Assembly: GCF_008086175.1 (NCBI RefSeq)
Contig: NZ_VSKM01000007.1
Location: 124,001 to 188,000, forward strand
DNA length: 64,000 nt
From: Bizionia saleffrena
GTDB taxonomy: Bacteria > Bacteroidota > Bacteroidia > Flavobacteriales > Flavobacteriaceae
Direction of reading: 5' to 3'
The notes below the pieces were generated by a model. That model made no database searches, had not been told where the DNA came from, and was given only the letters and a program-made list of their open reading frames with translations. Below, piece by piece: positions 9,145 through 13,382 of the stretch. The position numbers were made by a program, and so were the translations under genes. Numbering within the stretch: the first letter of the stretch is position 1; each line of letters begins with the position of its first letter.

Positions 9145-9690
9145 ATGAAAGCAGTCCCAACGCAATTAGAACAGTGTTTTATTATAGAGCCAACCGTTTT
9201 TAACGATGCGCGAGGTTATTTTTTTGAAAGTTTTAATCAAGAGACCTTTAATGCGCTCATTGGGCAATCGGTGACGTTTGTTCAAGACAACGAGTCGTAT
9301 TCTACAAAAGGGGTGTTGAGAGGGTTACATTTTCAAAAGGGAAATTGGGCACAAGCCAAGTTGGTAAGAGTGGTTAAAGGTCGGGTGTTGGATGTGGCCG
9401 TAGATATTAGAAAAGAGTCCCCAACTTATGGGCAACATTTTTCGGTAGAATTAACAGAAGACAATAAGAAACAATTATTTGTCCCCCGCGGCTTTGCTCA
9501 CGGTTTCGTCGTGCTTAGCGATACCGCCATATTTTCGTACAAATGCGATAATTATTACAATAAAGCATCTGAAGGCGGAATAATGTACAACGATGTGGCT
9601 TTAAATATCGATTGGCAATTACCTTCGAAAGCACTTATAATTTCTGAAAAAGATGCTATTTTGTCAACATTTGAAAATGCTATTTTATGA
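9145..9690 (+). CDS. rfbC: dTDP-4-dehydrorhamnose 3,5-epimerase
   Basis: A cupin-fold epimerase of 181 aa converting dTDP-4-keto-6-deoxyglucose to the L-lyxo form. The catalytic His is in RGLHFQ, the substrate loop in YFFESFNQ, and the PRGFAHGFVVLSD motif is conserved. The stop overlaps the rfbD start (ATGA at 9687-9690), which indicates translational coupling. Confidence 0.96.
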   Translation: MKAVPTQLEQCFIIEPTVFNDARGYFFESFNQETFNALIGQSVTFVQDNESYSTKGVLRGLHFQKGNWAQAKLVRVVKGRVLDVAVDIRKESPTYGQHFSVELTEDNKKQLFVPRGFAHGFVVLSDTAIFSYKCDNYYNKASEGGIMYNDVALNIDWQLPSKALIISEKDAILSTFENAIL

Positions 9691-10529
9691 AAAATATTTT
9701 AGTGACAGGAGGAAACGGTCAGTTGGGCTCAACATTTAAAGACGCGAAGCACAAGGCTAACGAAGCCTTTGTTTTTGTTGATAAAGAAGCATTAGACATT
9801 ACTAATAAAGAGGACCTTCAAGCATTTTTTGCCAAGCATAATTTTCAATATTGTATTAACTGTGCGGCGTATACTAATGTGGAGCACGCCGAAACAGATC
9901 GGGAGACTGCTTTTTTAATTAATGCGGAAGGGGCAAAGTATTTGGCTGAGGTATGTCGCGATTTTAAGACAACGTTAATTCATATCTCCACTGACTACGT
10001 GTTCGACGGTACTAAAACGTCACCGTATGTAGAAACGGATAGCACAGCACCGATTAATGTGTACGGCGCCTCAAAATTACTGGGTGAGCAGCACGTAAAA
10101 GAAACGCTATCTAATCATTTTATTATTCGCACGTCTTGGTTGTACTCTAAGTTTGGTAAAAATTTCTTAAAAACGATGGCTAGAAAAATGGAAGAGCATG
10201 CCGAATTAAAAATTACAACGGCCGAAGTAGGTACACCTACAAGTTGTGTAGACCTGGCAGACTTTGTACTGCATAATATCCGTACAGAGAATACAGCCTA
10301 TGGGACGTACCATTTTAGTAATGAAGGAGAAGTCACGTGGTTCGATTTTGGCGTTGAAATCGCCACACATTTTAAAGACTATAATCCAGCAAAAATAACC
10401 CCAGTCGACGCTTTTAAAACGCAAGCACAGCGACCTAAATATAGCGTGATGCGTAAATCTAAAATCCCGGAGCGCTATTGCCATAATTGGAAAACGAGTC
10501 TTGAACGCGTTATTAATACCTTAAAATAA
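9687..10529 (+). CDS. rfbD: dTDP-4-dehydrorhamnose reductase
   Basis: The last step of dTDP-L-rhamnose synthesis, an NAD(P)H-dependent SDR of 280 aa. It shows GGNGQLGS at the N-terminus, STDYVFDG, and YGASKLLGE carrying the YxxxK pair. The C-terminus (RPKYSVMRKSKI) matches the family RP-x-S signature. The dehydrogenase remnant begins immediately downstream. Confidence 0.96.
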   Translation: MKNILVTGGNGQLGSTFKDAKHKANEAFVFVDKEALDITNKEDLQAFFAKHNFQYCINCAAYTNVEHAETDRETAFLINAEGAKYLAEVCRDFKTTLIHISTDYVFDGTKTSPYVETDSTAPINVYGASKLLGEQHVKETLSNHFIIRTSWLYSKFGKNFLKTMARKMEEHAELKITTAEVGTPTSCVDLADFVLHNIRTENTAYGTYHFSNEGEVTWFDFGVEIATHFKDYNPAKITPVDAFKTQAQRPKYSVMRKSKIPERYCHNWKTSLERVINTLK

Positions 10530-10531
10530 GG

Positions 10532-10897
10532 GTGATAATCGCTATTATTGGTATAGGTAATATTGAAGCCAAATAGAAGAATGCAATCTTAAATGTTGTG
10601 TTGAGACAGAATAACAGTCAATTTAAGCAGGAAGAATTTTTATTATTATTTCTGAATGGATGTTCAAATGCTTCAGAGGTAAAAAAAGAATACAATCTCG
10701 ATGTAATACAAAATATAAAATCTTGACAATCAATCTATTGTGTTGATATTGAACATCATGAGTTTCTTCCTTTAGACTGGGAGTTACTCTCAAAAAATAA
10801 CACGATTATTTTTGACTTAAAAAGTGTGTTGCCTAAAGCCATAGCTATCTCAAGGCTAAGTAATAAATATGTAAAATGCTGTCTTGCAAGTCTTTAA
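10532..10897 (+). pseudogene. Decayed UDP-HexNAc 6-dehydrogenase (TviB/WbpA type) remnant
   Basis: This stretch has no long ORF, yet pieces of a nucleotide-sugar dehydrogenase are readable. The frame at 10727-10897 gives HHEFLPLDWELL, then TIIFDLKSVLPKAIAISRL. That matches the family C-terminus, where a VAHxEF-x-LD motif and a DVKGxLP-x5-RL end are usual. In the same frame, before a TGA at 10724-10726, lies ASEVKKEYNLDVI, like the DP-x-EVKxEYGL segment of the family. A weak dinucleotide-fold start (GTG 10532, IIAIIGIGNI) lies right after rfbD. The gene body between these parts is missing, so this is an internally deleted, stop-containing relic. Identification is by motif recall. Confidence 0.6.
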
Positions 10898-10962
10898 AAG
10901 CGGCGATAAATTCTTTATTCTTCCGATAGAAACTAAGATACAATCAAGATTATCGGGTTCAG

Positions 10963-10995
10963 TTTTAATATTAAGCATTTAATATAGTACTTTTG
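10963..10995 (+). promoter_or_regulatory. Promoter of the wecB-wecC segment
   Basis: TACTTTTG (10988-10995), followed by C, is an exact -7 match. TTTT (10963-10966) lies 21 nt upstream in the -33 position. The expected start near 11002 leaves a leader of about 40 nt before wecB. Confidence 0.55.
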
Positions 10996-11040
10996 CAAAT
11001 TATATGTCAAGCTAGATAATAAATTTACTACGTTCTAATA

Positions 11041-12165
11041 ATGAAAAAAAACCTCATCATTTTTGGTACGCGACCAGAGGCTATTAAAATGGCGCCTTTA
11101 GTTAAAGCGTTTTTAAAACAGTCCGGTACGTTCGAAACCAGAGTCTGTATCACCGCTCAGCATCGAGAAATGTTAGATCAGGTATTGTCTTTTTTTGAGA
11201 TTACACCGGATTACGATTTAGATTTGATGACACCAAACCAAAACTTGTATTCCTTAACGGCAGATATTATTACGAATCTTAAACCGATACTTGAGGAGTT
11301 TAAACCCGATTATGTGTATGTGCACGGTGATACGACAACTACAATGGCAGCGAGTATTGCAGCCTTTTACTCTGGAGCCAAAGTATGCCACGTAGAAGCA
11401 GGGTTAAGAACTTTTAATAAGCGTTCTCCGTTTCCAGAGGAAGTGAATAGAAGTATTGCAGGTGCTATTGCCGATTATCATTTTTCACCAACAGCGACAT
11501 CGAAACAAAATTTACTAAACGAAAACATTAAAGAAGAGGCTATTTTGGTAACCGGTAATACGGTAATCGATGCGCTTCAGTTTAGTGCAGAAAAAGTGAC
11601 TTCAGAAACGTATTCAGATATCGAAATAGACGCCCTTAAAAGTGTCGTCGATAGTTCTAAAAAGTTAGTATTAGTGACGGGACACCGTAGAGAAAATCAC
11701 GGTCAGGGATTTATAAATATTTGTAGTGCACTAAAAGAGATCGCCTTACAGAACAAAGCGGTGCAAATTATTTATCCCGTACACTTAAACCCTAAGGTGC
11801 AAAAACCAGTATACGAATTATTAGAGGGGATCCATAATATACAGTTAATCGATCCGTTATCCTATCCAGCATTTGTTTGGTTAATGGGCCAATCGTATTT
11901 AATTATTACCGATAGTGGCGGCGTGCAAGAAGAAGCGCCAAGCTTAGGGAAACCCGTTTTAGTAATGCGTGAGACTACCGAAAGACCGGAAGCAGTAGCA
12001 GCCGGTACAGTATGCTTAGTCGGTACAGATAAAAGTAAAATAGTAACAGAAGCGAACCGTTTATTAAACAATACGGAAGCGTATTCAGAAATGAGTACGT
12101 TACACAATCCGTATGGCGATGGAACGTCGTGTCAGAAAATAGTTGAATTTATTTCAAAGTTATAA
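11041..12165 (+). CDS. wecB: UDP-N-acetylglucosamine 2-epimerase (non-hydrolysing)
   Basis: Interconverts UDP-GlcNAc and UDP-ManNAc in the cytoplasm. Hallmarks are GTRPEAIKMAPL at the N-terminus, HGDTTTTMA, VEAGLRTF, TGHRRENHG and DSGGVQEEAP, all characteristic of the GT-B-fold epimerases. Length (374 aa) is normal. wecC follows 2 nt later, so the pair makes UDP-ManNAcA. Confidence 0.95.
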   Translation: MKKNLIIFGTRPEAIKMAPLVKAFLKQSGTFETRVCITAQHREMLDQVLSFFEITPDYDLDLMTPNQNLYSLTADIITNLKPILEEFKPDYVYVHGDTTTTMAASIAAFYSGAKVCHVEAGLRTFNKRSPFPEEVNRSIAGAIADYHFSPTATSKQNLLNENIKEEAILVTGNTVIDALQFSAEKVTSETYSDIEIDALKSVVDSSKKLVLVTGHRRENHGQGFINICSALKEIALQNKAVQIIYPVHLNPKVQKPVYELLEGIHNIQLIDPLSYPAFVWLMGQSYLIITDSGGVQEEAPSLGKPVLVMRETTERPEAVAAGTVCLVGTDKSKIVTEANRLLNNTEAYSEMSTLHNPYGDGTSCQKIVEFISKL

Positions 12166-12167
12166 TT

Positions 12168-13382
12168 ATGAGTAAACGTCCAAGCGTTGTAATGATTGGT
12201 TTAGGGTATATTGGTTTGCCAACGGCAGCTTTAATAGCTCAAAATAAAACCTATGTACACGGTGTCGATATAAATCCTAGTGTTGTAGAAACAATTAACC
12301 AAGGAAAAATACATATTGTAGAACCGGAGCTAGACATTGCAGTAGCAAAAGCAGTAAAAGAGGGCTATTTAAAAGCGGCGACTACTCCCGTTGAAGCGAA
12401 TACCTATCTTATCGTGGTTCCTACGCCATTTAAGGCTAAAAATGAACCGGATATTTCTTTTGTAGAAGCGGCAACAAGAGCAGTAGTGCCTTTATTAAAG
12501 AAGGACGATTTATATATTATAGAATCGACATCTCCAGTGGGAACGACCGAAAAGATGATGCAGCTAATCTATACCGAACGCCCAGAATTAGATGGCAAAA
12601 TTAACATCGCCTATTGTCCAGAACGCGTATTACCAGGAAATGTAATGTATGAGTTGGTCCATAACGATCGCGTTATTGGTGGTGTAAACGAAAAAGCGAC
12701 CGAAAAAGCAGTGGCGTTTTATAAGCAGTTTATAAAAGGGGCGTTGCATAAAACAAATGCACGTACCGCAGAAATGTGCAAATTGGTAGAAAACGCGTCG
12801 CGAGACGTACAAATAGCCTTTGCCAACGAGCTATCGCTAATTTGTGACAAGGCAGATATAAATGTCTGGGAGTTAATAGATTTAGCAAATAAACACCCCC
12901 GTGTAAATATTTTGCAACCTGGTTGTGGCGTGGGCGGACATTGTATCGCCGTAGATCCTTATTTTATTGTAGCCGAATACCCAATGGAGTCTAAAATTAT
13001 TGGTACAGCCAGAGAGATAAATAATTACAAATCGTTTTGGTGTGCCGAAAAAGTGCAAACAGCTAAATTAGAATTCGAGTTAAAACACGGCCGTAAACCA
13101 AGTATCGCCTTAATGGGCTTAGCGTTTAAACCCAATATTGACGATTTAAGAGAGTCTCCAGCGAAATATATCGCGCAGAAAGTATTACAAAATGCAAATA
13201 ACGAAGAATATTATATTGTAGAACCCAACATAACAGACCACAAAGTATTTAAATTAACACCGTATAAAGACGCTGCAAAACAAGCAGATATTATAGCATT
13301 TTTAGTCGCTCACGATGAGTTTAAAACGCTAGAAATAGCGGAAGACAAGGTGGTATTGGATTTTTGTGGGGTTTTTAAATAG
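12168..13382 (+). CDS. wecC: UDP-N-acetyl-D-mannosamine 6-dehydrogenase
   Basis: An NAD-dependent four-electron dehydrogenase oxidising UDP-ManNAc to UDP-ManNAcA. The N-terminal dinucleotide fold shows GLGYIGLPTA (11-20). The middle domain carries the catalytic-Cys loop GCGVGGHC with C259, and the C-terminal domain has MGLAFKPNIDDLRESPA. Adjacency to wecB makes ManNAc the most likely substrate; the family alone does not separate ManNAc from GlcNAc or GalNAc. The upstream remnant encodes another member of this superfamily. Confidence 0.9.
   Translation: MSKRPSVVMIGLGYIGLPTAALIAQNKTYVHGVDINPSVVETINQGKIHIVEPELDIAVAKAVKEGYLKAATTPVEANTYLIVVPTPFKAKNEPDISFVEAATRAVVPLLKKDDLYIIESTSPVGTTEKMMQLIYTERPELDGKINIAYCPERVLPGNVMYELVHNDRVIGGVNEKATEKAVAFYKQFIKGALHKTNARTAEMCKLVENASRDVQIAFANELSLICDKADINVWELIDLANKHPRVNILQPGCGVGGHCIAVDPYFIVAEYPMESKIIGTAREINNYKSFWCAEKVQTAKLEFELKHGRKPSIALMGLAFKPNIDDLRESPAKYIAQKVLQNANNEEYYIVEPNITDHKVFKLTPYKDAAKQADIIAFLVAHDEFKTLEIAEDKVVLDFCGVFK

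Follow-up and report, generated by a model that had tools for sequence, protein, structure and literature searches.

Probable scar of a tviB-type dehydrogenase gene between rmlD and wecB in a polysaccharide locus of Bizionia saleffrena

The window analyzed herein is a 64,000-nucleotide stretch of the genome of Bizionia saleffrena (contig NZ_VSKM01000007.1, positions 124,001 to 188,000). It carries on its plus strand an intact rmlD gene (dTDP-4-dehydrorhamnose reductase, 9687-10529; an ORF of 280 aa with 73-80% identity to congeners), an intact wecB ORF (UDP-GlcNAc 2-epimerase, 11041-12165; 88-89% to congeners), and an intact wecC gene (UDP-ManNAc dehydrogenase, 12168-13382; NF008286, 536 bits against a cut-off of 459). 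The stop of rmlD at 10529 and the start of wecB at 11041 are separated by a gap of 511 bp, which is translated in the frame of 10532 as VIIAIIGIGNIEAK* KNAILNVVLRQNNSQFKQEEFLLLFLNGCSNASEVKKEYNLDVIQNIKS* QSIYCVDIEHHEFLPLDWELLSKNNTIIFDLKSVLPKAIAISRLSNKYVKCCLASL*. The gap reads as a gene start, the end of an insertion sequence (IS), and a gene tail, in that order, with the body of the gene deleted.

The gene tail comprises the last 66 codons of a tviB gene (10661-10858, plus strand). In a search of the six frames of the gap, it matched positions 354-419 of the 419 columns of a profile built from 19 intact TviB proteins, up to the final residue (47.8 bits, i-E 2.9e-16). It represents the tail of the C-terminal UDP-binding domain, and homology runs to the terminal RL of the family. 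The motifs quoted in the original prediction were found on the plus strand in the frame of 10532, which ends with a TAA at 10895-10897, the very end given in that prediction; the in-frame TGA was located at 10724-10726. Intact relatives stop right after RL, and 10859-10897 is read-through beyond the lost stop codon. The homology check proposed against nucleotide-sugar dehydrogenases matched the tail to intact genes. Among 299 genomes of the same family, 180 contained matches to the fragment, nearly all of which were intact genes of 420-450 aa; identities were 37-46%, and the best non-self match had 44% identity over the whole tail (48.9 bits, E 2e-12). The profile and family-genome matches of the tail bear out the claim that this is the relic of a second TviB/WbpA-type dehydrogenase lacking its body. 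A Pfam search of the relic fragment detected no domain, and TviB (NF011729) was the only NCBIfam model to match it, weakly (E 0.061), both of which are expected of a decayed tail. This NCBIfam match, the TviB-type matches in relatives, and the tree clade indicate that TviB, rather than WecC or Ugd, is the nearest type to the relic. The central domain and catalytic residues of the TviB enzyme are absent from the gap, and it is very unlikely that a product is made from the relic.

The original prediction passed over an N-terminal remnant, IAIIGIG, which begins at 10532 directly after rmlD and is in frame with the 3' tail. This 5' end of the relic, VIIAIIGIGNIEAK (10532-10573, plus strand), corresponds to the Rossmann start IAIIGLGYVG of intact genes, and a TAG at 10574-10576 ends the frame. 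The remnant scored 19.7 bits against an N-terminal profile. When 20000 Markov sequences were scored, two reached this value over 131 bp and none over the first 48 bp; the probability of obtaining it by chance is about 1e-4 or less. In the short remnant IAIIGIGNIE, the first two glycines of GxGxxG are kept and the third is lost, and its position and frame fit a gene start. The intact tviB genes of Lacinutrix start 5 or 20 bp past rmlD; the remnant starts 3 bp past it.

The end of an ISL3-family IS, also passed over previously, lies between the two gene ends (approximate outer limits 10578-10650, minus strand; core match 10584-10647). It consists of a terminal repeat and the 3' end of the transposase gene, which is on the minus strand, and is 77% identical to three copies within the genome (blastn E 8.6e-6). 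The matching copies encode DDE_Tnp_ISL3 (PF01610) and share the terminal repeat GGATCATTCCTAAATGTTGTG, whereas their flanks differ. The alignment scored 57, whereas none of 3000 shuffles exceeded 31. Other pieces of the window scored 30 or less, apart from one at 10501 (34) that overlaps this site. We took an extension of the match into 10561-10577 as chance, that part of the copy (L009) being flank outside the IS and variable among copies. A single end aligns in the gap, where neither a second IS end nor a target duplication was found. Ten ISL3-family transposase matches are present in the genome, several of them broken by stops; they are located on contigs C4, C5, C6, C8, C9, C11, C14, C15, and C18, many at contig ends. 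The IS is multi-copy and decaying, and it breaks the genome assembly.

The remainder of the gap has a different character. The last 110 bp or so ahead of wecB align among three congeners, whereas the preceding part differs completely. The stretch TACTTTTG (10988-10995, plus strand) was present in all three congeners in a three-species alignment, and the gap is 78% identical to that of Bizionia paragorgiae over 73 bp. This stretch has the form TAnnTTTG, as in the -7 box of promoters in Bacteroidota, and the conserved region containing it is probably the wecB promoter, still under selection. The promoter-like region common to the three congeners spans 10960-11040, which suggests that transcription may start separately for the part of the locus with wecB. 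It seems, then, that the gap combines a freely changing stretch, in which the scar of B. saleffrena lies, with a conserved promoter region downstream of it. The rmlD-wecB gap of the other congener (G002, L054) holds an ORF-like stretch, KKSIIFTNVNGELPKVMMLADKKADFPLRLF, that matched nothing in Pfam or in 120 genomes of the family.

The rmlD-wecB interval is variable among related genomes, and many hold nothing there. A single intact tviB of the clade of the relic occupies the same site in Lacinutrix sp. MedPE-SW, L. venerupis, L. mariniflava, and a further genome (G386). Same-site tviB genes of other clades were found in G349 and Flavobacteriaceae bacterium RhTr2, and Kordia species carry tviB plus an epimerase between rmlD and wecB. 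In the tree, the relic was placed on a long branch among the tviB genes of Lacinutrix, G386, and G081, with moderate support (70). The same genome retains an intact tviB (428 aa) on contig C7. We rejected a recent duplication of this gene as the origin of the relic because the C7 gene and its 86% identical orthologues in congeners form a distant clade. Over 65 codons, the relic differed from intact genes at 16-29 second positions (3-13 for pairs of intact genes), and third positions accounted for 0.36-0.43 of its differences (0.44-0.68 for intact genes). These counts by codon position show decay of the relic at the sequence level. A profile search of 35 other rmlD-wecB gaps (105 frame translations) revealed no similar relics, and the three-species comparison detected no trace of the relic in the gaps of B. 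paragorgiae and G002.

We consider the gap to be the scar of a tviB-type UDP-HexNAc 6-dehydrogenase gene that formerly stood between rmlD and wecB and was lost through IS insertion followed by deletion, with decay of the remains (probability approximately 0.84). This is supported by the recovery of both gene ends at the expected site, with the strand, frame, and order of an intact gene and an IS end between them, as well as by the ISL3 copies in the genome, the intact same-site genes, the tree placement, and the codon-position pattern of decay. An ISL3-family element would have inserted near codon 15, as the order of the pieces suggests. Roughly codons 15 to 355 would later have been deleted together with the bulk of the IS, so that a single IS end is now flanked by the two ends of the gene, and these remnants would have decayed without selection. 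Since no strain was seen with a whole IS inside the gene, the order of insertion first and deletion second is inferred; the IS landing in an already truncated gene is a possible alternative. The two congeners show no trace of tviB, and their common ancestor may or may not have had the gene.

Other origins of the tail were weighed. A chance resemblance or an unrelated family is hardly conceivable; the failure to detect a Pfam domain would fit it, but it is refuted by the matches to intact genes across the whole tail and by the profile, which the tail matches up to its final residue. Judged from these alignments, the match of the tail is not due to chance. It is also very improbable that only a tail fragment of tviB was brought in when polysaccharide cassettes recombined and that a complete gene was never present here in this lineage. 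Polysaccharide loci vary a good deal among genomes and the congeners lack the relic, both of which speak for such an import; however, the N-terminal remnant stands in frame right behind rmlD, and intact genes occupy this same site in Lacinutrix.

The original prediction proposed that one acidic HexNAc pathway may have given way to another at this locus. In such an exchange, a TviB route (UDP-GlcNAcA/GalNAcA) would have been replaced by a WecBC route (UDP-ManNAcA), with the tail of the old gene left behind. The relic does adjoin intact wecBC. Furthermore, intact same-site tviB genes of its clade occur with a second WecC class, to which the WecC of the window is 65-68% identical, whereas the window shares the common class with its congeners (92%); Lacinutrix jangbogonensis also has the common class, with its tviB upstream of rmlB. 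However, the other class is likewise called as UDP-ManNAc dehydrogenase (NF008286, 560 bits) and stands beside tviB, so that wecBC is no substitute for it, and three loci (L058, L062, and L155) hold tviB genes of other clades between rmlD and wecB together with the common class. Relatives carry wecBC and an intact tviB next to each other at this site, so the one is not a replacement for the other. In the WecB and WecC trees, the window groups with B. paragorgiae and G002, both free of the relic, and, thus, wecBC is no newcomer in its lineage. The intact tviB kept on contig C7 also opposes an exchange, and a second wecB-wecC pair is present on contig C13. We regard the exchange as quite improbable; the data show that a locus possessing wecBC in any case has lost one optional gene.

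Loci without a same-site tviB of the clade of the relic mostly carry the WecC class of the window. This association draws on few independent lineages; a change in wecC class may have accompanied the loss of tviB here. It is imaginable, albeit rather unlikely, that a cassette exchange replaced tviB and a class-A wecC by a class-B wecC and its downstream glycan genes, and that the relic lies at the breakpoint. L. jangbogonensis (L100, 1-7400) differs from its relatives (L099 and L101) in having tviB upstream of rmlB rather than between rmlD and wecB; its wecC belongs to a different class from theirs and is 91% identical to that of the window, while its wecB remains Lacinutrix-like. This represents a swap that occurred in nature, with its breakpoint close to wecB/wecC.

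The preferred reading, gene loss through an IS, involves known components. The relic shares with TviB/WbpA-type UDP-N-acetylglucosamine 6-dehydrogenases (NF011729, TIGR03026) the last 66 codons, what is probably the Rossmann start, and the gene position of Lacinutrix; in contrast, it is short of about 340 codons, has an in-frame TGA, and has lost its stop codon. Similarly, the IS end has the terminal repeat and transposase gene end of its family, whereas only about 70 bp of a complete element is left. IS-mediated gene decay occurs in O-antigen and capsule loci, and the combination seen here, a pseudogene and IS debris amid intact sugar-nucleotide genes, does not differ from it in principle. 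Our search of the literature for the gene set tviB/rmlD/wecBC in Flavobacteriaceae found nothing specific.

The present results indicate that the gaps of polysaccharide loci can hold a readable record of former gene content. In Flavobacteriaceae, the tviB found between rmlD and wecB is an optional passenger. Its loss from this surface-polysaccharide locus, which changes fast, is of an ordinary kind and does not amount to a swap of pathways. For annotation, an intact tviB paralogue of another clade persists elsewhere in the genome; B. saleffrena probably no longer makes a TviB product from the rmlD-wecB locus.
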